The notes below the pieces were generated by a model. The model was given only the letters and a program-made list of their open reading frames with translations, ran no database searches and was not told the origin of the DNA. From the NCBI GenBank assembly GCA_018061065.1, contig JAGOUV010000001.1, positions 52,217 to 116,216 on the forward strand: a stretch of 64,000 bases of DNA, read 5' to 3'. Position numbers and translations under genes: made by a program. Position 1 is the stretch's first letter, and every line of letters begins with the position of its first letter. Shown in pieces: positions 8,862-59,000 of the stretch. This stretch comes from Candidatus Altimarinota bacterium. GTDB taxonomy: Bacteria; Patescibacteriota; Gracilibacteria; UBA1369; UM-FILTER-53-11.

Positions 8862-8871
8862 CTTTTAGACC

Positions 8872-11813: not shown

Positions 11814-11825
11814 TTAAAAAGTTTT

Positions 11826-14597: not shown

Positions 14598-14629
14598 GAT
14601 AAATTATTAATCATTAAATCAAATTTTTT

Positions 14630-39135: not shown

Positions 39136-42100
39136 TTACTTATGCTTCTTCTTTCTGCGCCCCTTATTTAAGAAGAAAGCGAGATTTGCCGCCCCAACCG
39201 TTACTATGTAAGGAATCAAGCCCGGTCCAGTACGGCCACGTTCAGGTGCTCTCACGATACGTTGAGTCTGTCCCAAATCTGGTGCTGCTTCTCGGAGATC
39301 GCCGTTACCACTATCATCCGCTGCAGGAGCTACATCATCAATAACTTCTGCTTGAGGTGCCTCACATGCGCCGCCAAATGCGATGTATGTTTCAGTAGGA
39401 CAGGGGATGCACATGCCAACAATGCGTACACCTGGTCGTTCGGGGCCATCGTAGGTGAATTGACCATGACTCTCGCATGTTTCTGCAGGTACAGGATCCT
39501 CGTTTAGGACAACATCATCAACTGGATCTTCTGCGGCAGGATGAGGAACAGTAATTGTCACCGCGTTACTCAATACCGGCGTGCCGGTAAGACCTGCTTC
39601 CGTTTCTTCTAAAGTAGTGAAGCTCATGTCGTGTGCTCCCGTAATTCCTACGCGGAAACTTGCTGCATCTGCACTGCTGCCATCTTTTACGCGTACTTTT
39701 ATAATAATCTTATGAGCAACTTCTGGTGGGTCAAATAACACACTTTGACTCATGCCATTTTGCTCACCAAAAACAATATTGTTTGAGGCTGCATCAAAGG
39801 CGCGAATTTCAGTAAATGCGGTTTCTGCACCATTTTCATTTATTACAAATAATTGAGCTTCAACATCGCTTGTCGTAAAAGCGGCTGTTGGTTGAATGCT
39901 TACGGTAATTCCGTTCGCACGTACCACGCGCCGTGGAGTAAGGGTAAAGCTACCAACGGTAACAAAACTTCCACCCGGATTCATATTCTGTCCTGCCGGC
40001 ATGTCTGCTGCTGCGGCGATGCCGTGAGCTGAACGCTGACGTTCTTGAATTGCTACGGGAGAAGTGAAGAGAGGGAAATTGCCACTAATCTCTGCACCTG
40101 CTGGATACAAGAACATATCTTCTTTTTCCGTGAGACCAATTGAAAGCATTTTTCCACGGACACTATCGGGGTTGCGTACACGCACAGAGATACCAATATA
40201 TTCCGTTTGTGTTGAATCATAACCACGATCGCCGGTTAATTCACCACCATTGCCAGATCTAAACTCAGCGATATTATTTGCATTAAATTGTATAGCAGTA
40301 CTCAAGTCGGCCAGTGGCGTATTTAATTGTTTGCGCGTTAGTTTCACTTCGATATCGTTCTTATCCAGGCTGTTTGCCACCGCATTAAAGTGCAATTTTG
40401 TAGTACGAATAGTAAGATTATCGGTTGCACTCATCATGATTTTACCCAGTTCAAAGAATTCTCCGTTGAGTGGATTATTCGGAAGTGCAGTGCTTTCAAC
40501 CGTGGTTGGTTGAAGAATTTCAAGTTGTGGTAGCTCAATAGTATTTCCATAGATCGGCAATACTTCCTGGACGTGCTGTGAAAGATCAGCAAAAGTTATA
40601 CGGGATATACCAAGTGCAATTTTTTTGCCCCTCACTGCGTCGAGTGTCGTATTTAATAATTTTGCCCGCAAAATGAGATCATATTGTCGGCCAGGTGTAT
40701 AAATAAATTGAGATGCCTGTATTGCTTTTTCACCCGATGCATTGAGCGGCGTTGAAGCACCTCCGCTTGCGGCGACGCCCTCTCCTAGGGGAAGATGTCC
40801 TTCGTGAAGATCAACCATCAATTCTGGTACGATATTTGCAAAAGGTAGGGGATTATCTAGTCCCGGCTTCATTTTGAGAGTTACATTAGTTATTGTTGCG
40901 TTTACGTTTGGCGTAAAGGTAAAGCGTGCAACCTCGAATGATTGTGAATCATAATTGAACGAATTTTGTGATGGGCTTTTAGCATCCAGTACAAGTGAAA
41001 GAGTGCTTGCAACTCCACATGCTGGATTGATAAAACTTTGAATACTTGCCCATGTTTCTGCATCTACCGTTGCGGTTCCTGGTAGTCCTTTTGAGCGTTT
41101 ATAGGCAATAACCTGATCTGCGGTTGCTTGATCAAAGTTGGTGTTAATTACAAGATTGGTGTGCATGAGCACGTTCAATTCTTTTTTTAGATGAGATACT
41201 TTTTCGTTGTTCATTCCTTTAGACAACTGGGGGTAACCGTCATGGCTATGTGCAGGACAGGTAGAGTTATTTGGGTCAGCCTGAAGAGCATCTGCTGCGG
41301 CTTGATCTTCAGCGGCATCTCGCGCAGCCTGTTCCCGTGCAGCTGCTTGAACTGCTTCCACCTCTGCACGTCGTGCTTGTGAATCGATTGTTTGTTCATT
41401 ACCCCATAAGGCGAATGTTCCCGTAGGAGTTGGTTCACCGTGTAATACGATGTCTTCAGCATTCAGTACTCCCAGTGTGAATTTTCTTCCTAAAAGGCTA
41501 TTTTCTTCTACCGTATTTGCTTTTACGATAATTTGGTGTGGGCCTTCAGCAAGAGGTAAACGTCCTCCTCTAATAAGGGGGATACGTGTTTTTCCTCTGG
41601 CCTCCATGACTGTTGGTGCAGACATGGCAGCTTCTACTCCGGCTGCATTTTTCTTGAAAATTTGTACAGTTAACTTTGTTCCTTCAAGGTCTCCCTTTCT
41701 TGCTCCACTTGGTTTGAGTGAGAGAAACATCGTATCTACCGTAATATCTTTTGTGGCGCTTACTAAAAGTGCCGTGACGGGGGCCATCTGCCCTCCATTT
41801 CTACCCCAAGGGAATGGTGCAGCTGGAGGAGTATTGGGACTCACCTGTATCTGTGTTTGTGCAGCAGCAGCTGCATTGCCGATTTTGAAGTCAGCACCCA
41901 TCATGCGTTGTGTGGAAAAAACTCCAGCTCGAGCAAAATTTCCACTGATAACCTGTGCAGGAGGATCAAGTAGGAAATCTGCTGGCGACTGGAATCCAAC
42001 GGCGAAATATCTATCACCAACGGCATCGGCTTTAACCCGTGCCTTAATAATTAATTCGTATGCACCTCGTTGAAAACGATTCGCGTCAGCTGCTGAAATA

Positions 42101-43071
42101 AATTCAGCTTGTTCAAATGAAGCCCCATTACCGGTCATACTTTTCAGCTGCGTGATGGCTACTTCAATATTATCTTTTTTCTTAAAGAGCTGGACTTCTA
42201 TATCTTCTGGTCTGATTAAAGGATTCATTATCTGTCCCACATTAGCGCCGCCAACTGCACGAATGTCATCTCTCAAACTTACTTTCATATGAGAAGGACG
42301 AAATTCTCCATTTGCGGTTAAGTCATAAATAGCTATCGGTGTTAATGGGCTACCGGGTAGCAGTGTTGGGGGGTTTAAAAGATCCCCCGGCGTACTTCGA
42401 GAGAGTGCTATTGCATTACTTACATTTGCCTGTGAAATGCTAAATTCATTGCCATAAATGGGAAGAGCTGTACCTGCATTCTGACGGTTTGCCTGAGTAT
42501 AGGTAACGCCTTGTAATCCGATACTAAAGTGTTTGCCTCGAGTTGCCGCTGAATTGCGTGCACGGACTTTGATAATAATTTTGCTTATTCGGTTTTGTGC
42601 TCCAGCGGGAACATTAAAGAAATTTACTCCGGTCAATTCATTAAGATTTGCTGCAGGATCTTCCGTAAATGTTGCTGTTTTAGTTGCAGCATTAAAATAT
42701 TGGGGACTCGTTGTCATGGCATCGTCCGTATTAAAAGCTTCCGTACGGCGATATACCATGACTTCTAAGTCACCGGGAGAAATTTCATTTGCGATTCCCG
42801 GTTGCATTTTAATGGTAAACGATTTATAGGTAATGGATTGCTCTGGAGCTACATCGATTGAAGCCACGGGAACAAACTCGCCCGGGTTAATTTCTGCAGC
42901 CGCAATTTGTGGATTTGTTGCACTTAATCGTACATTGACCACTCCGGCATCACCTGCACTTCCTCTTAGCTGGTTTATACTTTTCGAGGTAAACATCCAG
43001 AGACTTCCTCCTACAACGGCGAGAGAGGCAAGGGCGATGATTATCCACAATTTCATATTTTTATTTCCCAT
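39136..43071 (-). CDS. Giant secreted repeat protein with peptidoglycan-binding domain and TGP-type tail
   Basis: 1311 residues. A signal peptide or anchor (IIIALASLAVVGGSLWMF) precedes repeated modules of about 160-200 residues; each pairs a strand containing 'P-x-A-x-I/F-D-L/V' and 'M-K-P-G/S-x-x-x-x' with a closing GK-F/L-S/A-I/L-G. At least five copies are seen. Residues about 610-690 form a PGBD-1-like peptidoglycan-binding domain (LSKGMNNEKVSHLKKEL, DQATADQVIAYKRSKGLPG). Near the end a Cys-rich module (CESHGQFTYDG, GMCIPCP) is shared with the 189-residue neighbour, then RGRTGPGLIPY, a hydrophobic stretch and KGRRKKKHK. An S-layer- or adhesin-like wall protein is likely. Confidence 0.8.
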   Translation of the reverse strand: MGNKNMKLWIIIALASLAVVGGSLWMFTSKSINQLRGSAGDAGVVNVRLSATNPQIAAAEINPGEFVPVASIDVAPEQSITYKSFTIKMQPGIANEISPGDLEVMVYRRTEAFNTDDAMTTSPQYFNAATKTATFTEDPAANLNELTGVNFFNVPAGAQNRISKIIIKVRARNSAATRGKHFSIGLQGVTYTQANRQNAGTALPIYGNEFSISQANVSNAIALSRSTPGDLLNPPTLLPGSPLTPIAIYDLTANGEFRPSHMKVSLRDDIRAVGGANVGQIMNPLIRPEDIEVQLFKKKDNIEVAITQLKSMTGNGASFEQAEFISAADANRFQRGAYELIIKARVKADAVGDRYFAVGFQSPADFLLDPPAQVISGNFARAGVFSTQRMMGADFKIGNAAAAAQTQIQVSPNTPPAAPFPWGRNGGQMAPVTALLVSATKDITVDTMFLSLKPSGARKGDLEGTKLTVQIFKKNAAGVEAAMSAPTVMEARGKTRIPLIRGGRLPLAEGPHQIIVKANTVEENSLLGRKFTLGVLNAEDIVLHGEPTPTGTFALWGNEQTIDSQARRAEVEAVQAAAREQAARDAAEDQAAADALQADPNNSTCPAHSHDGYPQLSKGMNNEKVSHLKKELNVLMHTNLVINTNFDQATADQVIAYKRSKGLPGTATVDAETWASIQSFINPACGVASTLSLVLDAKSPSQNSFNYDSQSFEVARFTFTPNVNATITNVTLKMKPGLDNPLPFANIVPELMVDLHEGHLPLGEGVAASGGASTPLNASGEKAIQASQFIYTPGRQYDLILRAKLLNTTLDAVRGKKIALGISRITFADLSQHVQEVLPIYGNTIELPQLEILQPTTVESTALPNNPLNGEFFELGKIMMSATDNLTIRTTKLHFNAVANSLDKNDIEVKLTRKQLNTPLADLSTAIQFNANNIAEFRSGNGGELTGDRGYDSTQTEYIGISVRVRNPDSVRGKMLSIGLTEKEDMFLYPAGAEISGNFPLFTSPVAIQERQRSAHGIAAAADMPAGQNMNPGGSFVTVGSFTLTPRRVVRANGITVSIQPTAAFTTSDVEAQLFVINENGAETAFTEIRAFDAASNNIVFGEQNGMSQSVLFDPPEVAHKIIIKVRVKDGSSADAASFRVGITGAHDMSFTTLEETEAGLTGTPVLSNAVTITVPHPAAEDPVDDVVLNEDPVPAETCESHGQFTYDGPERPGVRIVGMCIPCPTETYIAFGGACEAPQAEVIDDVAPAADDSGNGDLREAAPDLGQTQRIVRAPERGRTGPGLIPYIVTVGAANLAFFLNKGRRKKKHK

Positions 43072-43098: not shown

Positions 43099-43668
43099 CT
43101 ATTTCTTACACGTGCGAGATTGAGTAATAAAGTTGTTCATCTCGCAGGGGATACATGTGCCATAAAGCATTCCGGGCACATCCTCTCCGGTGTATGTAAA
43201 GAGTCCTTTTGATTCACATGACGCGCGACTTGCCGTCGACGTCGCAGTTTGTTCGGGAATTTTTATTTTGTTTGTTTTAGTCGGTGTAGCGAATGTTGTC
43301 TCAAGCTGCTTAGAAGAAATGACAATTTCTTTTCTCACTTCACATCCCACCAATCTTCCATTTTCTACTACGGGAGTAGTTCCGAATGAACACTCGAGAG
43401 GCGTAGTCTGGATTTGCACCGGGCCGGAAATAATAGTTTTTTTTGTTGTGACGATCGGAGATTCTGGCGTTGCGGAACTTTGAATATCATTTGATATCAC
43501 GGCAGTGGGAAGGGGAGCCAGCGGTGTGATTTGTGGCTCACTAACAACGCTATCTAAGACCGAAGCGGATAAACCGCCACTGTCTTGTGCAAAAGAAGCG
43601 GTGGCACTAATAATCATAATCGCGCCTAGCGTTCCCAACACCCAATGAGTGATATGTGTATGTTTCAT
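43099..43668 (-). CDS. Secreted Cys-rich protein
   Basis: 189 residues. A signal peptide (VLGTLGAIMIISATASFAQ) is followed by a Thr/Pro/Ile-rich linker and a C-terminal cysteine module: CESKGLFTYTGEDVPG, GTCIPCEMNNF, ending CKK. The same spacing of CES-x-G-x-FTY, CIPC and a last Cys is found in the 1311-residue protein encoded 27 bases downstream, so the two probably share a fold or partner. It may act as a small companion of that surface protein. Function unknown. Confidence 0.7.
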   Translation of the reverse strand: MKHTHITHWVLGTLGAIMIISATASFAQDSGGLSASVLDSVVSEPQITPLAPLPTAVISNDIQSSATPESPIVTTKKTIISGPVQIQTTPLECSFGTTPVVENGRLVGCEVRKEIVISSKQLETTFATPTKTNKIKIPEQTATSTASRASCESKGLFTYTGEDVPGMLYGTCIPCEMNNFITQSRTCKK

Positions 43669-43700: not shown

Positions 43701-43805
43701 TTAGTAACCACCAGCGAGAGCGGGCACGATGACACTTACGAGAATTCCCGTAATTCCTAATACTGCCAGTACGATCGTCGCGATTCTTGTAGATTTTTTA
43801 GTCAT
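43701..43805 (-). CDS. 34-residue single-span membrane peptide
   Basis: A 34-codon frame, MTKKSTRIATIVLAVLG onward, with one hydrophobic helix, ending VIVPALAGGY. The basic start, hydrophobic core and ALA-type end look like a signal peptide with a very short mature tail. It lies 7 bases after the 729-residue PKD gene and fills the gap before the Cys-rich gene, so it probably belongs to the same transcript. No homolog is known to me. Confidence 0.5.
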   Translation of the reverse strand: MTKKSTRIATIVLAVLGITGILVSVIVPALAGGY

Positions 43806-43812
43806 AAATTAT

Positions 43813-46002
43813 TTATGGTTCAACGGTTATAGTTTTAGAGAAAACGTCGACATTATTTTCGCTATCATTTACTTCTAGAGTTACCGGATACTCTCCGGCG
43901 TCCTTAAAAATAAAGGTTGGTTTTCGCTCTAAACTTGTTTTTAAGTTGGCAAAATTCCACTTATATTTTACCACAGTTCCGGTGGAACAGGTAGGGTCGA
44001 AGCTGACGGTGAAGGGAGCTTTGCCCTTATCTGCGCTCACCTCAAAACATGCAGAAAGTGAAATTGGACGTACGCTGATGGGCACATTTGCCGAGGCGCG
44101 TTTTCCATCCTGTGTAATCGCCGTAACTTTTACGGTGAATGTTCCGATTTGATTATAACGATGAGAAACTTTTGCAGCATTAATCTGTGGTCTGCCACCA
44201 TCACCAAAGTCCCATTCGTAGCTGACGATGCGACCTTCTGGATAGCTTGAGCCAGAGGCATCGAATTTTACGGTGAGGGGAGCTGTTCCCGCTACCGGAT
44301 CCGCTGAAACATCGACTTTTAAACCTTGTTGATCAACTTTTACCACAATCGTTTCTTTGTCGGTAAAGTTCGTGGCATCTGTGACAATCACGCTTACCGT
44401 GAATGTTCCTGCCTCGCTAAAGGTGTGTTTTGCGATGGCATTTTTTTCATCAGATTTGCCGTCTTCATTGAAATCCCAATCGTAGTCGATAATATTGTCA
44501 TTGCGATCGATTGAGCCCGAGGCATCAAAAACCACATCAAATGGTGCGGCGCCAGTAATGACATTATCTTTTGCTACGGGAGTCGTTTTGATAGAGGCAA
44601 TTGGCGCTTCAGACGCGGTTGCTACGGTGAAACGCTGGGTTGTCGTCGCGGTTTCTTTTTTGTCGTTGGTGACGCGTAAGGTTGCCTCAAAAGTACCTGG
44701 TGCTTTGAATACGTGAGTTGCAGAGCGAGTTGCTGCTGCACCGCCATCACTAAACGTCCATGCGAATTTTTCAATACTTCCAGTGGGCGTAGTTGATCCC
44801 GCACCGTTGAAGATATAGGACTGACCTACCACAAGATTGGTTCCCGTAACGCCTTCTACTTTAATATCGGCAACGGGAGTGTTTTTTGCGCCGACTTCAA
44901 TCGTCGTCTCTCCTACAGCGGGTGCACCGGTAGAGTCGGTAACTTGAAGTTTTACAACATAAGAGCCAACTGCATCAAAGGTCTTTTCTACCTGTGCTTC
45001 TGCACCATCATCAAACTCACCATCAGCATCGAGATCCCATGCATATGAAGTGATCTCGCCATTGTCTGAGCTTGAGCTTGAGCCGTCGAATTTTACATTG
45101 AGTGGCGCCTCGCCGGAGCTTGGATCAGCTTTTATTACAACTGTCGCCAATACATTACTAATCGTCACATCACGACTAAACGTGAGCTCAGATTCCTTTG
45201 CGGTTGTCTTGTCTTTTAACTCAATCGTTAAAATTGCAGTGTAATCACCTAGGCTCGTATAGGTATGTGTTTGTTTTTCGCCTTTTGCTTTTGTATCGTC
45301 ACCAAAATCCCAATTAAAACTTAATACATCAAAATTTCTGCGGTTAACGGGAGCTTTTGATGCATCGAATTTTACGGTAACTGGTGCGGTGAGTCCGGTT
45401 GTCTTTACCGGCTCAGTAATAATAGGGGAGGTGAGGATCGGTGCGGTACGTTTTTGTGATAAGAAGAAGTAGGCAAAGGTCCACAATACAATGAAGAATA
45501 CCAATGCGGTTGAAGCGAAGAAGATAAATACATTCGCCTTTTTCTTTCCTTCCTTGTCTTCTTTTTTTGTTGTAGTGCGTTTGAAGACGCCAATGATAAC
45601 AACGACGAAATTAACGAATACAAAGAAGAGGAAGATGAAATTTATGAGCGTAATTAAGAAGTTCACCACTTGTCCTGCAGGGACACCCAGGAATCCGAAG
45701 ATCGGGCTCGTTTCTGGATTGCCGAAAGCGACGAAACCAAATACGACGGCGATCACCAGGAAGATGGAACAACCAAAAGCGGTGATGCATCCCCAGATTA
45801 TTTTTTTGCCAGATTTCTGTGTGGGTACTCCTGGCTTAGCAGGAGCTACTGGTGCCACGCCTGGCTTAGCCGCCGGTACGGTCGTTGTTGTTGTTGGGGC
45901 AGGGGCAGGAGCAGGGGCAGGAGCCGCGACTACGGGAGCCACTACCGGAGTAGGTTGTGGTGCGGGTGCTGGCTGTTGCTGTGGTTGTGCTGGTGTGTCC
46001 AT
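43813..46002 (-). CDS. PKD-repeat membrane protein
   Basis: 729 residues. A Pro/Ala/Thr-rich start (about 1-65) leads into three membrane helices (about 70-95, 110-140, 155-180) with a short Lys-rich loop. Outside the membrane follow about six PKD domains, each marked by a WDFGD-type strand: FNWDFGDDTK, YAWDLDADGE, FAWTFSDGG, YDWDFNEDGK, YEWDFGDGG and YKWNFANL. PKD domains are Ig-like and mediate surface protein contacts. Two of the strands have DxDxDG-like calcium loops. It sits between the 1665-residue pilin/PKD gene and the small-peptide gene. Confidence 0.88.
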   Translation of the reverse strand: MDTPAQPQQQPAPAPQPTPVVAPVVAAPAPAPAPAPTTTTTVPAAKPGVAPVAPAKPGVPTQKSGKKIIWGCITAFGCSIFLVIAVVFGFVAFGNPETSPIFGFLGVPAGQVVNFLITLINFIFLFFVFVNFVVVIIGVFKRTTTKKEDKEGKKKANVFIFFASTALVFFIVLWTFAYFFLSQKRTAPILTSPIITEPVKTTGLTAPVTVKFDASKAPVNRRNFDVLSFNWDFGDDTKAKGEKQTHTYTSLGDYTAILTIELKDKTTAKESELTFSRDVTISNVLATVVIKADPSSGEAPLNVKFDGSSSSSDNGEITSYAWDLDADGEFDDGAEAQVEKTFDAVGSYVVKLQVTDSTGAPAVGETTIEVGAKNTPVADIKVEGVTGTNLVVGQSYIFNGAGSTTPTGSIEKFAWTFSDGGAAATRSATHVFKAPGTFEATLRVTNDKKETATTTQRFTVATASEAPIASIKTTPVAKDNVITGAAPFDVVFDASGSIDRNDNIIDYDWDFNEDGKSDEKNAIAKHTFSEAGTFTVSVIVTDATNFTDKETIVVKVDQQGLKVDVSADPVAGTAPLTVKFDASGSSYPEGRIVSYEWDFGDGGRPQINAAKVSHRYNQIGTFTVKVTAITQDGKRASANVPISVRPISLSACFEVSADKGKAPFTVSFDPTCSTGTVVKYKWNFANLKTSLERKPTFIFKDAGEYPVTLEVNDSENNVDVFSKTITVEP

Positions 46003-46031
46003 AAATAATGAGTTACAAAATGCAGTCTGAA

Positions 46032-49000
46032 CTAAATGCGCAGTTTACCGCGGCGCATAAAGCCCGCGACGCCGATGACCATCAGCACAATGCCGATACC
46101 ACCTGCGATACTAAATATAATTGTGTTGCGTACGCCCAAGTCTTTAAATACTGAGGCGGCAAATAATCCACCTTCACATTTTGAGGTAAGTGCAGCTGCT
46201 GTGGCAGCGTCTTTTGGCACTTTGAAGTAAATATCAATTAAGTCTTCATCTTGTTTGTTTTGGCGATCAGTTACCAGCAAGCGTGAACGATAATCGCCTG
46301 TGCCTGGTGGATGTCGCTTAATATCCGCGCGTTCGTAGTGTTTGGTAAAGCAGTTTTGAGACTGTGTTCCCGTGCCTACCACCGTACATGTCGGATTTGT
46401 ATTTTCAATATCATCTGCGCGCTGCCCATTGCCATCTGCGTCGTTAAATACGTTTGAGTCAAATGAATAATTAATAATATCGCCGCGTGAATCAGACCAG
46501 AAATAAGTGATATCTTCACCACAAGAAGTTTCTGGAATATATATAACTTTTTTCTTACAGTTATCGTTTGCGGAAATCTGGCAATTTGGAATTGTTTCAA
46601 ATTCTTGAGTTGATCCGTCTGAACGTTTTGCGGTGAGCTCTGCGCGTAAGATCGCTGCATTTGGGGTAAGACCCGGTGCAGAAGCGCTTGTGTTTCCTGG
46701 AATCAAATCGATGAATTGCGTTTTATTCATAACATTTCCATCAGAATCTTCCACCATCATTTTTACTTGATAGCGCTTGCTGAGAGGGAAGTCGAAGCGA
46801 GGATTTGGATCAGTTGAATCCACATCATCATTCTTATCTCCGTTACAGTGTTTTGGTTTTGGATCTACGTCACAACCCAATTCTTCAGTTGTATCAAAAT
46901 CCCATTTCCATGAAATAATTTTTGCACCGTGTTCAGTATCAGCTTTGCTGCTGTCATAGAACTGCACGCGGCGTGGGGGATCGCGGAGAACTTCATACGT
47001 GAAGTTTGGCTCTGGATCATTTGATTTTGCGGTGACGTTAATGGACACTTCTCGTGAAACTGCCTCGGCACCCTTATCATCAATTACTTTTAATTTTACG
47101 CGGTAGCCGCTCTGCGGACTCTTTTTTGCATAGATATGGGTAATACTTGCTTCCGTAGTTGGATTGTCGTTTTGGAATCCATCACCTTCCATATCCCATA
47201 TATAATTTACAATCGCACCATCTTCATCTTTTCCGCTCGAGGTGAGCGTCACTGATTCACCTGCACGAATAGCTGTTCTTGAAGCCTCAAACTTTGCAGT
47301 AGGTGCTTTGTTTGGGCCATTTTTTACCGTAACTTTTGGCAATTGTTCTTCATTGAATAATTCACTGCACTGAGTAGTGCTATTATCATTATCTGTTAAG
47401 CTCACGCAGAACGTATATTCATGTTCCTCATTTTCTTCTCCAATCGTATCAAGGCGAAGTAGGGCAGTATTTACCGTTGTATCGATAACGCCCAGTTTGT
47501 GTTCAGCATCTGCGGGATCGAAGTACCAGAATTGATATCCGGTAATTTTTCCATCAGGATCGTAGGCGCCCTCTGCAGTAAGTTGAACTTCTACTGGCGT
47601 CACATTTCCCGCGGTCTTTTTTTCAATCGAGAGGGAAGTGGCCTGTGGTTTTTTGCTTATGACCGTAATAGGGAATGTTGTTTCACTGCGCTTGTTTGGA
47701 TTTGCGTCTTCGTAGACGGTGAGTCGCACCAAGCGTGGTTCATTTTCCGCAGTAAGATCAGTAAATGAGTAATCGATCGTCTTTTTTGTTTTTTCAGTTC
47801 CATCACCAAAATTCCAGATATATTTAAGCCCTGAAGTAGTTCCGTTGCTGTTGATCGAATCACCAGCATCAAAGCGCAATAACTGTTTTCGAATAACTTC
47901 TAATGAGCCTGTTTGGCCCTCGATTACTGACTCCGGCAAGATGACCGGAACCCCATCAATTGAGACGTTGATAATCGCAAATGGATTATCATCGGGAGTT
48001 ACATAAACACGGCGAGAGAAAATATTTTCGCCATTATCTTTATCGGACTTTGCAGTTACCTGAAGAAGATATTCGCGTGGTTGAGTATAAATATGAGAGA
48101 ACTGATATGAGGTCGTAGTCGCATTGTCATTTTTACAGCTGCTTTCTTTGTCCTCTGAAATTCCCTCACAATTTTCTGCTGCGAGTTCTGCAGTTTCACC
48201 ATCTCCAAAGTCAACTTCTACGGCATCTGCATATGTTGTTTTAAAGGCTACGGTAAGCTCTGCTTTGCCTGTTACCATGCGTGCGATAGGCTTCATCTTT
48301 GCATCCCAAGTCGCCTCAATTATTGAGCCGATGGTCACTTCTTTTTCTATACGATCTTCTTGGCGAATCGTATCGCCGTGTGAATCATTTACCGTGAGCA
48401 CTACTTTATATTTTCCTACTTTATTAAATTTAACACGCAATTTTTTAGTGTCTTTGCTCGGTAGTTTTACATTTGGAGTCACAATACTCATGACTGAAGA
48501 ATCTTTTACTTCTTCGCCAATTTGATTATAGATCTGCCAGTTATAAGTCAGCTCGTCTTCCTTATCAGGGTCGAAACTTCCCGTTGCATCCATCTCAACC
48601 AGAGAAGGTTGTGCAGGATCTACACAGCTGTCTGGGCATGAACGCAAAATGAAATTTGCGCGTGGTTTGCGGGATTTTACGCTCACATGAACCTCTGAAG
48701 TTGCCGTGCTGTTACCATCATTGACCATCAGATGCACGGTATAACTTCCGGGTTTCTTGAATTTGGCGCGGAGTACACTTGCATCATTTGCACCAATTAC
48801 ATCGATTTCATTTTTCAAATTTAATACATCTTTGCCCTCAGCATCATTAATAATCTGCCACTCATAAGAAGTAATCTGGCCGTTATCACTGCGTGAGATA
48901 CTGCCATCGAACTCTACCAACTCTTCAGGCTCAGTAATTGTTTTTGTGGCACTGATACGTGCAGCAATTGCCGAGATATCAATAATCACTAATTTTCTAT

Positions 49001-51029
49001 CTTTGCGGTTGTTTCGGTCAGTGACCTCTAATGTGAGCGTATATTTGCCATCTGCTTTATATTTATGAGTCACCGTTTTTTTATCGGCACCCGTAATAAT
49101 TGGCGTAGTGTCACCAAAACTCCAGGAATATCCCTGTAGCTGTGAGTCACTCTCACCACGAGAGTCAGTCGCATCAAAAGTCACGCCGATCTGTTGTGCT
49201 TCTTTTGTCGTGACATGATACTCGGTCACATCTGTCTGAATATATGAGTTTCCACGGTTGTCTTTTGCGTAGTTGCGGAGATACTCTGCCTCGGCGTTTG
49301 GACCTGCCTTTGCAGTCAAAATAATACGCGCAATCGGTGGCTGAACCACGATTGCTACAGAGTTCTGTCCGGTTGCTACGTGTGCACTGTCCTTACTCTT
49401 AATAGTAAGACGTGCATAATAGGTTCCCGGTTGATTATAAATACAGTGAATTGTTGCGCCCGTGGTGTCGTCACCACAGTCAACAGCGGCAAAACCTTCA
49501 CCACCTCGTGCGGGAGTACGATCGATGCCATCACCATCTGGATCCCATACGTATTCATTATCATCAATGGTCGTACCTGCGGGATCACGCGAACTCAATC
49601 CACTGAGCTCTACAATAAGTGGTGCATTGCCACGCGTAATAGTTGCTGTTGGCTGTACATCCACAAACTTGATTGAGCGGATGACCAAATATAATTGGTC
49701 TAGTTTTTTGAGTGTCTTAATAAAGGTATCAATATTTGCTTTTTCCTGAGGTGCGTCTTTTATGCCGCGAAGTTTATCTACCTCTGCAATTGTTTCTTTC
49801 ATCATTGAACCCACCGTTGCAGTTGGATCAATTCCGGCGAGAGCTTTTTGAATTTCGGCTGTATTTGATACGTCATTCTTGATCGCATTTTCTGCATTTG
49901 CGTCTGCAATCGGGCCCAGAATTTTCCACACAATAAGAAGTGTCCCTTCTACAGTTTCACCAGAATCTGGTCGAGAAGATATGTTCGCTCCAATTGGTCC
50001 TACTAACCCCTTGATCTCTTCTTCAAAATCTTCCTTTGCTGCATCAAAAATTGAAGGATCAATTTTTGTCTCGGTCTCAGTCTTAATTCTTTTTCCCGTT
50101 AGGTTTCCCGATGCACCTATATACTCTAACATTTTCGCATCGCTGAAACTTTGGAAGGTAATAAAATAATCATCAATTACTTTCTGAGTTGCAATGCGTG
50201 TGTGACTTAGCGGCGCACTTGAAGTGCGAATCTGCGTGATACTTGAGTTTACACTTGATATATATGAACGGTGTTCGCTCGGTGTTGTTGGAGCAGGCAA
50301 TTGTTTAATGCGATTAATCGTGCGCTCTGTCTCAACTAAATGTTTATAGGCATCTAGCAGCGAAAGAGCTGCGCGATAGACCTCTACTGATCCCACGTTG
50401 TAACTATTTGTTGCGCTTCCATGAACCGTTGTATTCTCGCCCGGTTTGATGGTATCCGTCCCATCGGTTCCCACAAAATTAATAATCGTATTCACAAAAG
50501 CAAATGACGCAATGATGATAATGATACCAATCGCTGCATACTGAATTGCCTTTTTTCCTTTCGTTGCCTGGTCTTCATTTCCTCCAGAAGTGACGTATAG
50601 AAAGCCGCCATAAATTACAACGACCACTGCCATCAATCCTAGAAAACTCAATGCGAAATTTACTGTTTTTACCACAAAGTCACGAGCGCTTGAAGTTCGT
50701 GTAAGAGTTGAGTCTAAGCCTTCTTTGCTTGGTGGTTGAAGTCCGCCTTTGAATCCAATAAATGTCGTGACATCTCCACTGTCTCCACTGAGATCTCCAA
50801 ATAATGCACCGAGTGTATCACCCACTGCGTCACCGGCAACATTTAACGCGCCGCCAACAAATCCACGATGGTCGCTATCAAATCGCTGCCATCCCTCGTC
50901 GTCCATATTTGAGTACGGATTTGAAAACGCATATGCCGTAGGTGCACTTATAAAAAATACGCCACAGATCATGCTCACGATCATGGCCACAAAAATTCCA
51001 CGGAAAATTCCTGTTTTTTTGTTTTTCAT
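46032..51029 (-). CDS. Giant protein with T4SS-pilin module and PKD array
   Basis: 1665 residues. A signal peptide (IVSMICGVFFISAPTAYAF) precedes a T4SS-pilin (VirB2/TrbC-like) module at about 95-175: FLGLMAVVVVIYGGFLYVTSGGNEDQATKGKKAIQYAAIGI, split by the GGNE-D-Q turn. After a helical segment come about nine or ten PKD domains (YVWDPDGDGID, YSWSFGDTTP, YIWNFGDGTE, YIWDMEGDGFQ, WKWDFDTTEE and others). A C-terminal helix (IAGGIGIVLMVIGVAGFMRRGKLRI, cited in two parts: IAGGIGIVLMV, GFMRRGKLRI) anchors the end. A TATAAT box 9 bases before the ATG suggests a leaderless mRNA. The fusion suggests a membrane pilin-like base carrying an extracellular stalk. Confidence 0.87.
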   Translation of the reverse strand: MKNKKTGIFRGIFVAMIVSMICGVFFISAPTAYAFSNPYSNMDDEGWQRFDSDHRGFVGGALNVAGDAVGDTLGALFGDLSGDSGDVTTFIGFKGGLQPPSKEGLDSTLTRTSSARDFVVKTVNFALSFLGLMAVVVVIYGGFLYVTSGGNEDQATKGKKAIQYAAIGIIIIIASFAFVNTIINFVGTDGTDTIKPGENTTVHGSATNSYNVGSVEVYRAALSLLDAYKHLVETERTINRIKQLPAPTTPSEHRSYISSVNSSITQIRTSSAPLSHTRIATQKVIDDYFITFQSFSDAKMLEYIGASGNLTGKRIKTETETKIDPSIFDAAKEDFEEEIKGLVGPIGANISSRPDSGETVEGTLLIVWKILGPIADANAENAIKNDVSNTAEIQKALAGIDPTATVGSMMKETIAEVDKLRGIKDAPQEKANIDTFIKTLKKLDQLYLVIRSIKFVDVQPTATITRGNAPLIVELSGLSSRDPAGTTIDDNEYVWDPDGDGIDRTPARGGEGFAAVDCGDDTTGATIHCIYNQPGTYYARLTIKSKDSAHVATGQNSVAIVVQPPIARIILTAKAGPNAEAEYLRNYAKDNRGNSYIQTDVTEYHVTTKEAQQIGVTFDATDSRGESDSQLQGYSWSFGDTTPIITGADKKTVTHKYKADGKYTLTLEVTDRNNRKDRKLVIIDISAIAARISATKTITEPEELVEFDGSISRSDNGQITSYEWQIINDAEGKDVLNLKNEIDVIGANDASVLRAKFKKPGSYTVHLMVNDGNSTATSEVHVSVKSRKPRANFILRSCPDSCVDPAQPSLVEMDATGSFDPDKEDELTYNWQIYNQIGEEVKDSSVMSIVTPNVKLPSKDTKKLRVKFNKVGKYKVVLTVNDSHGDTIRQEDRIEKEVTIGSIIEATWDAKMKPIARMVTGKAELTVAFKTTYADAVEVDFGDGETAELAAENCEGISEDKESSCKNDNATTTSYQFSHIYTQPREYLLQVTAKSDKDNGENIFSRRVYVTPDDNPFAIINVSIDGVPVILPESVIEGQTGSLEVIRKQLLRFDAGDSINSNGTTSGLKYIWNFGDGTEKTKKTIDYSFTDLTAENEPRLVRLTVYEDANPNKRSETTFPITVISKKPQATSLSIEKKTAGNVTPVEVQLTAEGAYDPDGKITGYQFWYFDPADAEHKLGVIDTTVNTALLRLDTIGEENEEHEYTFCVSLTDNDNSTTQCSELFNEEQLPKVTVKNGPNKAPTAKFEASRTAIRAGESVTLTSSGKDEDGAIVNYIWDMEGDGFQNDNPTTEASITHIYAKKSPQSGYRVKLKVIDDKGAEAVSREVSINVTAKSNDPEPNFTYEVLRDPPRRVQFYDSSKADTEHGAKIISWKWDFDTTEELGCDVDPKPKHCNGDKNDDVDSTDPNPRFDFPLSKRYQVKMMVEDSDGNVMNKTQFIDLIPGNTSASAPGLTPNAAILRAELTAKRSDGSTQEFETIPNCQISANDNCKKKVIYIPETSCGEDITYFWSDSRGDIINYSFDSNVFNDADGNGQRADDIENTNPTCTVVGTGTQSQNCFTKHYERADIKRHPPGTGDYRSRLLVTDRQNKQDEDLIDIYFKVPKDAATAAALTSKCEGGLFAASVFKDLGVRNTIIFSIAGGIGIVLMVIGVAGFMRRGKLRI

Positions 51030-51038
51030 ATTCAGATC

Positions 51039-51044
51039 ATTATA
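51039..51044 (-). promoter_or_regulatory. -10 element TATAAT, 9 bases before a start codon
   Basis: A consensus TATAAT on the minus strand ends at 51039; the ATG of the 1665-residue protein is at 51029. Expected transcription start is 2-3 bases before the ATG. Confidence 0.5.
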
Positions 51045-51141
51045 CCTGAATTTGCGTGTTAGGTAAAGCCACCCCGGGCTGTCTCACCTACGGTCTACGT
51101 TGACTTATTACTATAATATTCTCCAGTATACCTTGTGTATC

Positions 51142-52116
51142 TTACGGTCGTGAGTTGAACGTGGCAATCGTCGTCACAATGGCGAAGGCCGTTATGGCTA
51201 TAACCACGCCAATCAATGCACTCTGAATGATTTTTTTTGCTTTGCCGGTCTGGTCTTCATTACCAAAAGAGGCGACATACAGATAACCTCCGTATACCAA
51301 CATTAAGAACGATCCAAATCCAATAAATGCCGCCACAAAGTTCGTAAAATTGATCACGAGCATATTGGCACTTGCGACATCAATTCCTTCTTTTCCGCCG
51401 TCTCTAAATATAATTCCTTTGATAGCAAACTCAGCAACTGCAGATACGAGCAAGCCTGCAATGGAAAAGCCGATACGTTTTTTTGCTTTGCCGATAACAT
51501 CATCATTTCCTGCAGCACTCACCATGCGGAATCCGGAGAGCACCAAAACAAAAAGTGAGACGCTCGCCATCATAGCCAAAATAAAATCATAAATTCCTTT
51601 GATCAAACTGCTTCCCACTTTTGAACATTCTTTTGCATTTGAGGCGCTCGCAATACACTCACCATAGTCGCCAAAAAATACTTTTGTTACGAGCTGATCA
51701 GCAATCATTACGAGGATCAATCCGAAAATAATATATTTCAGTGCGGTGCGTTCTTTTTCAAACGCTTCGTCTGCTTTGCTTCCCGCTGTTATGAGCTTTA
51801 CACCGCTAATCGTAGCCATAATCACCGCAATTGTTCCCAGTACATATTTGAGTATATCGATTGCGGTAAAAATTAAACTCGTGATGGTATCCGCGCCAGG
51901 ATCTACTGAAGAAAGTTCGTGAGGTTTATTTTGAAAACTATTGAGGCCTGATTTACCCAGAGCTTCGTTTAGATCAGTAGAGGCATCATGTATCGTGCGA
52001 TCTCCCGGAGTGGTTGCAGCAGCAGCGGGCGCAGGAGCGTTTTGAGCATAGGCAAGCGGTGCTGCCGTAACGCAGAGTACGCTAATAAGTGTGAGAGTGA
52101 AGAAAAGTTTTTTCAT
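51142..52116 (-). CDS. Membrane protein of three tandem T4SS-pilin-like modules
   Basis: 324 residues from ATG 52116 (MKKLFFTLTLISVLCV), with a signal peptide ending near AYAQ. Three modules, each of two helices split by a glycine/charged turn, follow: module 1 with ISGVKLITAGSKADEAFEKE, module 2 with LSGFRMVSAAGNDDVIGKAK, module 3 with VYGGYLYVASFGNEDQTGKA. The same layout occurs singly in the 1665-residue protein. Its start and the stop of the upstream 312-residue gene overlap by one base (TAATG), so they are translated together. A longer frame start at 52197 would lie inside that gene and is not used. Confidence 0.85.
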   Translation of the reverse strand: MKKLFFTLTLISVLCVTAAPLAYAQNAPAPAAAATTPGDRTIHDASTDLNEALGKSGLNSFQNKPHELSSVDPGADTITSLIFTAIDILKYVLGTIAVIMATISGVKLITAGSKADEAFEKERTALKYIIFGLILVMIADQLVTKVFFGDYGECIASASNAKECSKVGSSLIKGIYDFILAMMASVSLFVLVLSGFRMVSAAGNDDVIGKAKKRIGFSIAGLLVSAVAEFAIKGIIFRDGGKEGIDVASANMLVINFTNFVAAFIGFGSFLMLVYGGYLYVASFGNEDQTGKAKKIIQSALIGVVIAITAFAIVTTIATFNSRP

Positions 52117-53054
52117 TATCCGTTGAATTGACGAGCTACAAAGGTACTTACAATGGCGAACGATCCATAAATAATAACGATACCAATAATTGCCCACTGA
52201 ATGATTTTTTTTGCTTTGGCTGTTTTTTCTTCGTCGCCTCCCGCAAGTGCATACATGAGTGAAGCACCCACGAGCGCGAGCAAAGCGATTGGCCCAGTAA
52301 TAGCGGCAATTACATTCGTCACTCCTGCGATTTCTTGAATCAAGCGGCCAGCATCAATACCCGGTCGTACGGCCTGCAATCCTGGGAACGCATTTGTATC
52401 CACCTTGAAAAATACTTTCTTAATAATTGGATCGGCCATCAAAATAATCGCCAGACCCAAAATGCCGTACATGATGCTCTTTTTGTCTTTTCCTACCTCA
52501 TCTTCATTGCCTCCCAATGTCACCATGCGTAGACCGCTACGTATGACAAATGCCACGGAGATACTACCAATAATATATTTCAAAAAGGTCATGACCACCT
52601 CAACAACTCTATTAAAAATACGTGTTTTTTGAAGTGCTTCATTCGCATTGCTTAATATGTCGCTGCCGTTTGAAACTTTAAATATATCTGAAATTTCACT
52701 TGCCAATCCGATCACAAACAAGCCGATAATACCCCAAATTATTGTGGTGCTCTGCTTAGTAAACTCTTCTTCGTTTCCACCGGATGCCACTAATTTTACT
52801 CCCGCAATTATAATAAATAATACTGCCACTGCACCGATCACTACTTTTAGTGACCCGGCTAACTGTTCTACAAAATTTTTACTTGTTTCTAGGGAAGTCG
52901 ATCCTTCCGGGCAGGGAAGTGGGCCGCATAGTTCTTTTGGCACATCAAAAATTTCTGCTGCATAGACCGTAGGCGTCATCACCGTGGCAAAAACACCCAC
53001 GAGCGCCAGTGAGAATGAAATGGTCATTACTATAGATAAGAATTTTTTGTGCAT
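52116..53054 (-). CDS. Membrane protein of three tandem T4SS-pilin-like modules
   Basis: 312 residues. A signal peptide (MTISFSLALVGVFATVM...VYAAE) precedes three modules at about 65-125, 145-215 and 230-305, marked by IIAGVKLVASGGNEEEFTK, IRSGLRMVTLGGNEDEVGK and ASLMYALAGGDEEKTAKAKK, each followed by a second helix (IIWGIIGLFVIGLA, IMYGILGLAIILMA, IIQWAIIGIVIIYG). One extracytoplasmic Cys pair (CGPLPC) lies near the N-terminus. VirB2/TrbC pilins normally contain a single module, so a triple fusion is unusual. It is the first gene of the surface-protein run and has an extended -10 promoter 15 bases upstream. Confidence 0.86.
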   Translation of the reverse strand: MHKKFLSIVMTISFSLALVGVFATVMTPTVYAAEIFDVPKELCGPLPCPEGSTSLETSKNFVEQLAGSLKVVIGAVAVLFIIIAGVKLVASGGNEEEFTKQSTTIIWGIIGLFVIGLASEISDIFKVSNGSDILSNANEALQKTRIFNRVVEVVMTFLKYIIGSISVAFVIRSGLRMVTLGGNEDEVGKDKKSIMYGILGLAIILMADPIIKKVFFKVDTNAFPGLQAVRPGIDAGRLIQEIAGVTNVIAAITGPIALLALVGASLMYALAGGDEEKTAKAKKIIQWAIIGIVIIYGSFAIVSTFVARQFNG

Positions 53055-53069
53055 TTTTGTTTCCGAACA

Positions 53070-53078
53070 TTATACCAC
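53070..53078 (-). promoter_or_regulatory. Extended -10 promoter TGGTATAAT
   Basis: On the minus strand TG-G-TATAAT is a perfect extended -10 element. It ends 15 bases before the ATG at 53054, giving a predicted leader of about 8 bases for the tandem-pilin operon. Confidence 0.6.
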
Positions 53079-53169: not shown

Positions 53170-53448
53170 ATGGCCTCAAATAAATTAATGCAGTACTTCA
53201 GAGATAGCTTCCACGAACTTACAAAAGTAACGTGGCCTACCCGTAATCGCGCAATTAACATTTGTATATTAGTAGTGGCATTTGTATTTGTTGCTGCTGT
53301 GGTATTTGCAAGTATTGATTACCTATTCAATCTCGGCATGCGCCAAGTTATTGATTACGCTGCGACAAACAACCCAGCTCCTATAGTGGATGCAGTTGAT
53401 GCGTCAGCAACGGCAACTCCGATTACTATTCCAACTCCTCAACAATAA
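53170..53448 (+). CDS. secE: Preprotein translocase subunit SecE
   Basis: 92 residues. YFRDSFHELTKVTWPTRNRA is the conserved SecE amphipathic helix and hinge (E-L-x-K-V-x-W-P), followed by one transmembrane helix (ILVVAFVFVAAVVFASIDYLF). A polar Thr/Pro tail of about 25 residues follows. SecE stabilises SecY. nusG starts 12 bases later, the classic order. A GGCGC/GCGCC hairpin lies at 53129-53150 upstream, without a T run. Confidence 0.95.
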   Translation: MASNKLMQYFRDSFHELTKVTWPTRNRAINICILVVAFVFVAAVVFASIDYLFNLGMRQVIDYAATNNPAPIVDAVDASATATPITIPTPQQ

Positions 53449-53460
53449 CTTAATACTTAT

Positions 53461-54006
53461 ATGGCAAAGCAAGCTCCCGGTACTGGCCGGCATTGGTACG
53501 TAGTTCACACTTATTCTGGTTATGAGGACGCGGTTCGTGAGGCGCTCTTGCAACGTATAGAGTCGACCAACATGCAGGATTATATTTTTGACGTTGTTGT
53601 GCCAAAAGAAACTCAGATTGTTATTAAGAAAGGACAGCCTAAAGAAGAGAAAAAGAAGTTATTTCCCGGATACGTATTAGTAGACATGATTGTAACTGAT
53701 GATTCTTGGTATGTGGTTCGTAACACACCAAATGTAACGGGATTCGTGGGTTCAGGAACAATTCCCGTTCCTGTTTCAGCTGAAGAGTGGGGTGTAGTAA
53801 AGACTCGTATGGGTCAGCAGGATGCCAAATTCAAGGTGGACTTTGCCGTTGGCGATCATGTGGTTGTCTTGGATGGTCCATTCGTTAATTACGATGGAAT
53901 CATCAAGTCAGTCGATGACGAAAAGGGTAAGGTAAAGGTGATGATCACGATCTTCGGTCGTGAGACGCCGGTGGAGTTGGACTTCACGCAGGTTAAGAAA
54001 AAATAG
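53461..54006 (+). CDS. nusG: Transcription termination/antitermination factor NusG
   Basis: 181 residues. The NGN domain (about 8-115) has HWYVVHTYSGYEDAVREAL, KKLFPGYVLVDM and WYVVRNTPNVTGFVGSG; the KOW domain (about 125-181) has VGDHVVVLDGPFVNYDG and VMITIFGRETPVELDF. NusG binds RNA polymerase and, through the KOW domain, Rho or S10. It continues the secE-nusG operon; the next gene begins 10 bases later. Confidence 0.97.
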   Translation: MAKQAPGTGRHWYVVHTYSGYEDAVREALLQRIESTNMQDYIFDVVVPKETQIVIKKGQPKEEKKKLFPGYVLVDMIVTDDSWYVVRNTPNVTGFVGSGTIPVPVSAEEWGVVKTRMGQQDAKFKVDFAVGDHVVVLDGPFVNYDGIIKSVDDEKGKVKVMITIFGRETPVELDFTQVKKK

Positions 54007-55984: not shown

Positions 55985-56018
55985 AGACCACTTGCAGAAA
56001 TGCGGTGGTCTTTTGCTT
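55985..56018 (+). terminator. Rho-independent terminator of the rplK-rplA operon
   Basis: A 7-bp outer stem (AGACCAC / GTGGTCT) plus a short inner TGCA/TGCG pairing is followed by TTTTGCTTTT. It begins 27 bases after the rplA stop. Confidence 0.85.
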
Positions 56019-56036
56019 TTATTTATATTTGACATA

Positions 56037-56045
56037 TGGTACAAT
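56037..56045 (+). promoter_or_regulatory. Extended -10 promoter TGGTACAAT
   Basis: TG-G-TACAAT is identical to the element at 1004. It lies 24 bases before the ATG at 56070. A TTGACA at 56029 is only 5 bases upstream and cannot be its -35 box. Confidence 0.55.
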
Positions 56046-56069
56046 ATCTTGATTATTAACAAAATAAAT

Positions 56070-59000
56070 ATGAAAAAATACAGCAACAAAAAGAAATTTC
56101 TGGTCGGGATTTTTCTTGTTTCGTTCTCAATCTGGCCGGGAGCAGCATACGCAGCATCACAAACGCTCACATGTAACTCCGGTGAGACGCGTGCAATTAC
56201 TGCTGGTACATACGTTGATGCGGCAGGTACTACATTCACTGCTGGTTCAGATCTTACGTTAAATTCAAGTGGTGGCACATGTACATTTACACTGACACTT
56301 GATCAAGCTGCCTCTGCAGTTGAGCTCGCTTCTTTGACGATTGATACAGATGTTACGCTTAGTCATGATATTAGTGGCACAACAGCTGATACTTACAACC
56401 AATTAAAATTAGCAATCACTGGAGCACTTACTATCAATAGTAGTGGTAAGATTGATGTGTCCGGTAAAGGTTATCAAGGTGGTAGTTATTTTGTATATCC
56501 TTACTCAGGTTACACTGTAGGTAATACAGCGGGAAGTGAAGGACTCAGTGGTGGATCACACGGAGGTGAAGGTGGTTATATTGGTTATACGCCACCTGTA
56601 TACGACTCGATTAGTAATCCAGTATTACCGGGTGGTGGTGGTGGTGCCTCAAGTTTTCTAGACGGTGGTGATGGTGGAGGTGTCATCATTATTACTGCAG
56701 CTAGTGTGGTAAATAACGGTAGTATTTTGGCTGATGGTACTGGTGCATTTCCCAATTTCTCAAGTGGTGCCGGTGGTTCGATTAATATCACTGTTACGGG
56801 CACGATCACTGGTGCGGGTACTATAGGTGCTCGTGGTGCTGATAGTGCGAACTATGGCGCTGGTGGTGGTGGACGTATTGCACTCAAGGGATATACAAGT
56901 CTCGATGGCGCGCTCACTATTGCTGCAAATGGTGGTAATTTTACCTCATTTAATCCTAACCGCGATGGTGCTGCAGGTACAATATTCCAAAGATCTTCCA
57001 CGGGTACATATGGTGATTTGATCATCAAAAACACATCATCCATAACATCGCCTAATTTCCCTACACACTTGCCCGCTACGGTTCCTACTTCGGATCAGTA
57101 TGCAAAATATGGAAGTGGTTATGTATTTGATTCGGTAACCGTGTCTGATTATGGACTCTTATCGATTTCTACAACCTTTGATTCCGTGCAGGATGGCACA
57201 GCCAACTTTTCAAGAAAATTCTATTCGAGCAGCTGTACCGCTGCAGATGATAGTGTTGCAAATGGTGAAATTATTTTTAACGCAGATTTTTATACAGATT
57301 CTGTTTCAAATTCCACTTATGATTATACGTGTGCAGCTCCTGCTTTTTTAGTAGGTTTCGCAACTTCAGCTACATCGGGATCTGAAACTTCAACAAGTAA
57401 AACATTTACGGTGAGCACTTCGGGTGTTGCTGATGCACAAGTTACCGTTGATTATGCAATCACAGGTACCGCTACTGCAGACGCTGACTATACTTTGGCT
57501 GCCGGTACGGCGACGATTCCTATTAGCTCAAGTTCTGATGATGTCTCATTTACCGTTATCAATGATCTCGATCGTGAGTCTTCAGAAACGATGATCATAA
57601 CGCTTTCTAATCCGACAAATGCAACGCTGCCAACAGGTAATGCTGTTTTTACCTACACCATTACTGATAATGATACTCCGGGAATTACGGTGACAGAAAG
57701 TAGCAGTTCTACGGATGTTACGGAAGGAACGTCTACGGATGATTATACGGTGGTGCTTCTAACTCAGCCTACTGCTGATGTAACGATCACACCAACTGGA
57801 GATACTCAGGCTACGGTGAGTCCCTCAAGTCTTACATTTACCAGTACCAACTGGGCAACACCCCAGACTATCACGGTGACAACAGTAGACGATGCAACTG
57901 CTGAAGGAAGTCACACAGCCACAATTACCAATGCTTCAACCAGTACAGATGTTGATTACGGAGGTATGCCTGTCTCAAGTGTGACTGCAAACATTACAGA
58001 TAACGATTATGCAGGTACTACGGTAACTCAGAATAATGGTTATCAAGTAACTGCGTCCGAGCAGGATCCTACTAATAATACGGGTTGGTATAGAATTGCA
58101 TTAAATACTCAGCCAACTGCTGATGTCACCATTACGCCTTCTCCTAGCGCGGAATGTACGGTGAGTCCAAGTTCCATAACGTTAACAACTTCAAACTGGG
58201 CAACACCGCAGACAATTACGGTAACTGCAGTAGATGACGCGGATGCAGATGCATACGATAGTTGTAATATTACTCATAGTATTACGACAACTGACTCACA
58301 GTATGCGTCACAGTATATAGGCATCACTGCAAGCATTACGGATAATGACACAGCGGGAATGACGGTGACACCAACATCTATCACTGAAATTGAAGGTGGC
58401 ACGCCAGGAACCTATACAGTAGTTTTAACTGCTGCTCCTACTGACGATGTTACGGTGACCATTACTGATGATGAAGCTGAAGGAGTAAATGAAGCTACAT
58501 TTTCACCAGCAACACTGACATTTACTTCTGCCAACTGGAATACTCCACAGACGGTGACGGTGACCGCAGTAAATGATGCTGTTATCGATGCTGTTACTTC
58601 AGTAAATCTAACAAATACTACAACGAGTGCTGACACGAGATATCAAGGTATTTATACACCAGGTGTTTCTACCTATGTGTATGATAATGATCACTTTACG
58701 ATTACGCAGAGCTCAAGTTCAACGGATGTTTTAGAAGAAGGTGCAACCACTGATACGTTTACTGTCGTCATGGCAGTTGAGCCCACTGGTTTCAGCGATA
58801 TTGAGGTAACGGTCACTTCTACTGCAGATGCAACCGTTGCAACCGACCCAGTTACCAGTCCTGTCATGTTAATCTTTAACACAGCCAACTGGAATACGCC
58901 GCAGACGATTACCGTAGCAGCAGTAGATGATACTGATGTTGAGGTAGGTGATACCGCTACCGTTAGTTTCTCTGTTAATGATAAAGGCTGGGGTAACTTC

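Follow-up and report, generated by a model that had tools for sequence, protein, structure and literature searches.

Tandem pilin and pilin-PKD genes in a conserved patescibacterial block, a candidate surface subassembly of a dispersed T4SS

Peregrinibacteria are ultrasmall, probably host-dependent bacteria, and the means by which Patescibacteria outside Saccharibacteria attach to and exploit their hosts are largely unknown; the T4SS of these lineages looks incomplete in surveys. The window analysed here (the whole stretch of DNA, 64 000 nucleotides) carries on its minus strand a block of four genes, in the order A-B-C-D and spanning 43813-53054 (-), in which T4SS-pilin modules are joined in threes or fused to rods of PKD domains. 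What might be built from such chains, and does it belong to a T4SS? A first-pass annotation had proposed a dedicated apparatus of fixed triplication with PKD stalks, standing apart from T4SS because VirB4 and VirD4 were missing. Conservation strongly supports the first of these proposals, while the second is contradicted by genes scattered through the rest of the genome. The features of genes A and B are as follows.

52116..53054 (-): gene A, 312 aa, signal peptide and three T4SS-pilin hairpins (six TM); PF18895, TM scan, AF2 model and order-wide orthologues
52680..52895 (-): A pilin module 1, residues 54-125; PF18895, AF2 model
52410..52646 (-): A pilin module 2, residues 137-215; PF18895, AF2 model
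52125..52352 (-): A pilin module 3, residues 235-310, the best conserved module of A; PF18895, AF2 model
51142..52116 (-): gene B, 324 aa, signal peptide and three T4SS-pilin hairpins; PF18895, homology to A
51667..51897 (-): B pilin module 1, residues 74-150; PF18895, TM scan
51397..51624 (-): B pilin module 2, residues 165-240; PF18895, TM scan
51151..51369 (-): B pilin module 3, residues 250-322; PF18895, TM scan

These two genes had been described as a coupled pair with three T4SS-pilin modules in each product, and the profile searches bear this out. Against Pfam PF18895 (T4SS_pilin; curated cut-off 26.6 bits), A matched in three stretches (84.9 bits, E=4e-24), as did B (53.2 bits, E=3.2e-14), and the stop codon of A overlaps the ATG of B as TAATG at 52118-52114. 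A also scored above the TrbC/VirB2 Pfam cut-off and above that of NCBIfam NF045849 (pilin-like conjugal transfer protein), which B missed by 0.3 bit. A hydropathy scan gave each protein a signal peptide and six TM segments, and the modules keep the pilin hairpin with its charged GG(N/D)E-K loop. The AF2 model of A, built on 49 sequences, consists of three long helical hairpins (pLDDT 76.6, pTM 0.53); comparison of this model with the PDB using Foldseek yielded no informative fold match (best E 0.13). B is homologous to A along its whole length (hhalign E=7e-52). Chance similarity as the source of the pilin matches is excluded by the PF18895 scores together with their conservation. The pattern of one module per small protein that marks PF18895 and VirB2 pilins does not extend to this block, where A and B contain three modules and C has 1665 aa.

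The earlier proposal hung on synteny in related genomes as well as on the pilin profile matches, and it withstood both tests. A search with A gave matches at E<=1e-6 in all 59 of the order genomes searched (59/59), although some genomes yielded nothing beyond other pilins or fragments. In the loci of relatives that were read at length, the arrangement A (three modules)-B (three)-C (one plus PKD)-D (six PKD) was found on a single strand in 20/20 cases, usually divergent from secE-nusG; a few of these C or D genes are split or cut by a contig end, one D being cut in this way and another containing unknown residues. Among 53 named GTDB loci, mostly from Peregrinibacteria, Peribacteria or Gracilibacteria MAGs with two labelled Nitrospirota, the same block was seen in nearly every locus of sufficient length, a few of the C genes being split or short. 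Within the order, A and B proteins that are complete have three modules, almost without exception. In a tree of the modules, which rests on 88 columns only and is uncertain in its details, the modules clustered by position (9 label changes, where at least 6 are needed and shuffling gave a mean of 147), with 1-3 changes needed for each positional group, and A3, B3 and the C module formed one well-supported set (98). Positional clustering with so few label changes suggests that the three positions are old and specialised. The simplest reading of the sequences is that triplication predates the A/B duplication and that the positions specialised afterwards, so that the block would exemplify pilins evolving into covalently fused, position-specialised assemblies.

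The third gene had been read as one pilin module fused to nine or ten PKD domains. Its features, with the two promoter-like sites of the block, are listed here.

46032..51029 (-): gene C, 1665 aa; a signal peptide and a pilin hairpin, then a helical domain, ten PKD domains and, at the C-terminus, a TM segment with basic tail; PF18895, TM scan, model, PKD profile
50466..50687 (-): C pilin hairpin, residues 115-188; PF18895 (E=7.7e-8), alignment, model
49674..50423 (-): C helical domain between the pilin hairpin and the first PKD, residues 203-452; AF2 model
46215..49670 (-): ten PKD-like domains of C, residues 454-1605; iterated PKD profile
46065..46121 (-): C-terminal transmembrane anchor of C, residues 1637-1655, followed by GFMRRGKLRI; TM scan
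51039..51067 (-): promoter-like site TTTACC-17-TATAAT just upstream of C; weak candidate from the promoter scan
53069..53074 (-): TATAAT box 14 nt upstream of the A ATG, seen in the sequence; absent from the strict promoter scan list

C has a single PF18895 match (residues 123-181, 32.7 bits, again above the cut-off) and ten PKD domains by the iterated profile, in line with that reading. Within the N-terminal 490 residues of the alignment, the pilin hairpin is the site of most invariant positions. The helical domain behind it was modelled largely at pLDDT 85-97, and less well around residues 370-400. It gave no convincing PDB match, and the model of the C N-terminus no informative Foldseek match in the PDB (best E 0.038); a VirB5-like identity for the domain is unsupported, as the profile matches are to generic helical bundles. 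By hydropathy scan, C consists of a signal peptide, two TM segments, a long outside part, a C-terminal TM segment and a basic tail. The PKD domains of C and D scored above cut-off for Pfam PF18911 and PF00801 and lie outside the cell in this topology. Membership in the NCBIfam CPR pilus family PamR was rejected, since the resemblance is one of PKD motifs only (24.8 bits against a cut-off of 300). A separate TATAAT box lies 9 nt upstream of the ATG of C, and A-B and C-D may therefore be two separate transcripts; the promoter scan counted no more sites in the sequence than in its shuffles.

The fourth gene was expected to encode a second PKD membrane protein, and it does, probably with a pilin hairpin of its own.

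43813..46002 (-): gene D, 729 aa; a cytoplasmic N-terminus rich in Pro precedes a signal anchor, a pilin-like hairpin and six PKD domains; profiles, TM scan, orthologues order-wide
45475..45702 (-): probable degenerate pilin hairpin of D, residues 101-176, with basic loop KRTTTKKEDKEGKKK; hhalign
43816..45432 (-): six PKD domains of D, residues 191-729; iterated PKD profile

The hydropathy scan placed the Pro-rich N-terminus of D inside, followed by the signal anchor and by a hairpin whose loop is strongly basic. In a profile-profile comparison, this hairpin aligned with module 3 of B (hhalign E=6.5e-5, probability 64%), and is thus probably a worn pilin module. The sixth and last PKD domain has two cysteines, Cys 652 and Cys 672, that are kept in 20/20 sequences.

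As the first-pass annotation had noted, no VirB4, VirB6 or VirD4 gene, nor any T4SS ATPase, was recognised beside the block; candidates for all of these lie elsewhere in the genome. A VirB4 of the CD1110 family is encoded at G000:C18:152109-154166, 36 kb beyond the window end and 47 kb from A (NF045971, 367 bits against a curated cut-off of 325), and PrgI/VirB3 at C18:205084-205539 (60.8 bits, cut-off 27), adjoined by a separate protein that is similar to the N-terminal domain of VirB4. Two VirD4-like ATPases score above the cut-off of PF02534 and below that of NCBIfam VirD4; they also match HerA-type DUF87, so a HerA-type homology is possible as well. A polytopic family that is a candidate for VirB6 was found via sub-threshold PF04610 matches in 56/59 order genomes. 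The copy in this genome (G000:C20:22839-25127) sits within a conserved gene row and has no significant Pfam match. Several single-module pilins are also encoded elsewhere in the genome. A-D are not near VirB4, PrgI or the VirB6-like gene, and the latter two are at other loci. This agrees with a T4SS dispersed over several loci, as does a survey in which VirB3 and TrsD of Gracilibacteria usually lie away from VirB4 (PMC12102498). The same survey reports VirB6 absent in Gracilibacteria, in contrast to the VirB6 candidate seen here.

VirB4 was present in 53/59 order genomes, mostly at 62-81% identity, and adjoins gyrA in the nine order members inspected. Four high-quality genomes lack it. In two of these, G001 and G028, the assemblies are also without gyrA, while in G008 and G036 a contig ends within approximately 400 bases of gyrA, towards the expected position of VirB4. 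We therefore read the four absences as assembly gaps, and the idea that A-D persist without VirB4 was rejected on the same grounds.

Taken with these genes, the preferred reading, to which we give slightly less than even credence, is that the block forms a lineage-specific, pilin-derived surface subassembly of the dispersed patescibacterial T4SS, probably acting in host contact, whether to grip a host cell or to inject it. It is favoured by the essentiality of pilin genes within the Saccharibacteria T4SS cluster (PMC10633639) and by the presence of T4SS pilins and PKD proteins among the highly expressed Patescibacteria genes in cultures with parasitised methanogens (PMC10936435). A and B would be exported by Sec and then inserted as six-helix membrane proteins, each comprising three VirB2-type hairpins that have specialised and whose charged loops lie inside, and would very probably cooperate in a fixed ratio. 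The fixed module number, the position-specific divergence and the A-B coupling speak for a defined hetero-oligomer and against a filament of repeating units. The pair could replace part of the pilin assembly by a base, collar or short stub of covalently linked modules. As the same type of hairpin is fused to PKD rods in C and probably in D, these two proteins may join the same lattice through their own hairpins, giving a complex of all four from which rods of ten and six PKD domains would project outward, that of C being held at its C-terminus also. VirB4, PrgI/VirB3, the VirB6-like protein and the single-module pilins encoded elsewhere would supply the remainder, which implies a physical link to the T4SS, and the rods would adhere to the host. 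Such an ordered, order-wide pilin-PKD block, with a possible VirB6, is a testable candidate for a host-contact apparatus. Against the T4SS reading, A-D are distant from VirB4, PrgI and the VirB6-like gene, the joint occurrence of two traits that are both order-wide is little proof, and AF2 models of single chains, which gave no informative fold matches, say nothing on oligomers.

The same distance is the starting point for a different explanation, namely a stand-alone adhesive membrane platform in which A and B form a pilin-hairpin scaffold that holds C and D as PKD adhesins, with no working link to a T4SS. The block has its own locus beside secE-nusG, no ATPase was recognised next to it and both C and D have the build of surface rods, all of which fit such a platform. 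However, T4SS genes are scattered in this lineage anyway (PMC12102498), which leaves distance with little weight, the C, A3 and B3 modules group together in the module tree, and the genomes carry single-module pilins too. We consider this explanation somewhat unlikely. A true filament, with A and B co-polymerising, with or without single pilins, into a pilus of tandem protomers that bears the adhesins C and D at its tip or sides, appears improbable: the retained hairpin and charged loop, the several single pilins and the presence of VirB4 would suit it, but extraction of six-TM chains from the membrane would be hard, the strong positional divergence of the modules suits a fixed assembly better and C is anchored at both ends. 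We also entertain, as a doubtful but distinct possibility, a more specific geometry in which an A-B ring of fixed stoichiometry together with the C and D hairpins would form a non-growing, PKD-bearing collar, so that pilins would have become the permanent platform of an order-wide contact organelle.

How do these proteins compare with systems already described? Patescibacteria are known to have pilin arrays in the form of tandem rows of 2-11 separate pilin genes (PMC12102498). PF18895 and TrbC-VirB2 pilins, those of the arrays included, share with this block the hairpin profile, the Sec signal, the charged loop and the several paralogues per genome, whereas here three modules, always in this number, are covalently fused, and additional ones are attached to PKD rods. 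The Saccharibacteria T4SS (SEML1_0006-0019, related to MPF-FATA) likewise has a VirB4 of the CD1110 family, PrgI/VirB3 and pilins (PMC10633639); the present system differs in its dispersed loci, in the addition of tandem pilins and pilin-PKD fusions, and in a VirB6 represented only by a divergent candidate. VirB6, a polytopic stalk protein that has been put forward as the platform for pilus assembly (PMC12624023), resembles A and B in being a polytopic membrane protein, and A and B could act at the base of pilin assembly. Their profile matches, in contrast, mark them as derived from pilins, and a separate VirB6-like candidate, of a family found order-wide, is encoded in the genome; both points weaken the idea that A and B are themselves the missing VirB6. 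The PKD surface proteins of CPR bacteria, for example in Vampirococcus lugosii (PMC8080830), are also long and membrane-associated, some with PKD domains, and have been proposed to act in host contact; the part of that account consulted describes no pilin hairpin or tandem-pilin operon. A search of the open literature, with subscription journals and bioRxiv mostly outside its reach and hence weak as evidence of novelty, found no description of tandem T4SS pilins or pilin-PKD fusions. The parts thus belong to known families, and what is apparently undescribed, on that weak evidence, is the fixed covalent triplication, the pilin-PKD fusions and the order-wide block.

The flanks help to define where the conserved block ends.

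53170..54006 (+): secE-nusG, conserved flank that diverges from the block; so arranged in most relatives
43099..43668 (-): gene E, secreted protein of 189 aa, a neighbour at family level; homologues in family members only, among the loci read
39136..43071 (-): gene F, 1311 aa, surface protein with PG_binding_1 domain, family-level neighbour; PF01471 E=2.4e-6

E and F lie downstream of D, outside 43701-53078. Homologues of F, like those of E, were confined to family members among the loci read, which places both genes, E being a small secreted protein of the kind that had been said to follow D, outside the conserved core. Other surface proteins of the same genome have SLH domains. An envelope or sensing structure unrelated to hosts, serving for instance in cell-cell cohesion or surface-layer tethering, would be in keeping with these domains and with the peptidoglycan-binding domain of F, and the block occurs throughout the order whatever habitat is given in the record names. 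A Pfam scan of A-D themselves, on the other hand, found no SLH or peptidoglycan-binding domain, and we regard this explanation as very improbable.

Beyond the order, the A profile matched at 1e-10 in 239/288 genomes of a class-wide sample, not all of these being full-length triples. Across a phylum-wide sample, nearly every match outside the class had roughly the length of one module. Most genomes of family f25 gave no match to A, with pilins and VirB4 present; A-B would thus be dispensable for such T4SS in general, which counts against the preferred reading of the block as a T4SS subassembly. The loci read from other orders of the class had A and B adjacent with different flanks, and most class loci examined had three modules per chain. 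In two members of family f20, the genes beside nusG are A-B, one further single-module protein, C and D, and in one member of family f22 the profile finds four modules in each chain. Stops interrupt a few A-B pairs in other orders of the class.

Outside the block of three-module pilin genes (A and B) and PKD-protein genes (C and D), the source genome encodes further T4SS-like proteins at three other loci (locus coordinates first, then contig coordinates where available):

L051:6632-9605 (G000:C5), five pilin genes in a row near ftsK, each with one pilin module
L164:6329-7539 (G000:C18:204329-205539), PrgI/VirB3, adjoined by a distinct protein that is similar to the N-terminal domain of VirB4
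L189:6839-9127 (G000:C20:22839-25127), a divergent VirB6/TrbL-like candidate

The PrgI/VirB3 pair lies approximately 50 kb from the VirB4 ATPase on the same contig, and the separation of the N-terminal-like protein from the ATPase looks as if VirB4 had been split. The VirB6/TrbL-like candidate is present in 56 of the 59 genomes of the order. It belongs to a conserved gene row, preceded by proteins of 177 aa and then 586 aa and followed by one of 1200 aa. According to a published survey, Gracilibacteria lack VirB6 (PMC12102498).

The block was also found on two separate contigs (L084 and L090) of JAUVQE01, a MAG labelled Nitrospirota that is probably a mislabelled or mixed bin. In another genome (L141, G068:C12), in-frame TGA codons break the A and B reading frames of an otherwise intact-looking pair; these may reflect recoding, errors in the sequence or decay of both genes into pseudogenes.

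Two other features of the window deserve mention:

55992-61766, + strand, secreted 1924-aa protein, mostly repeats, downstream of rplK-rplA
6441-15856, + strand, type I restriction-modification genes HsdR, HsdM and HsdS

A Pfam search with the repeat protein gave no match. The row of restriction-modification genes also encodes a DUF2130 protein and an SMC-like AAA protein.
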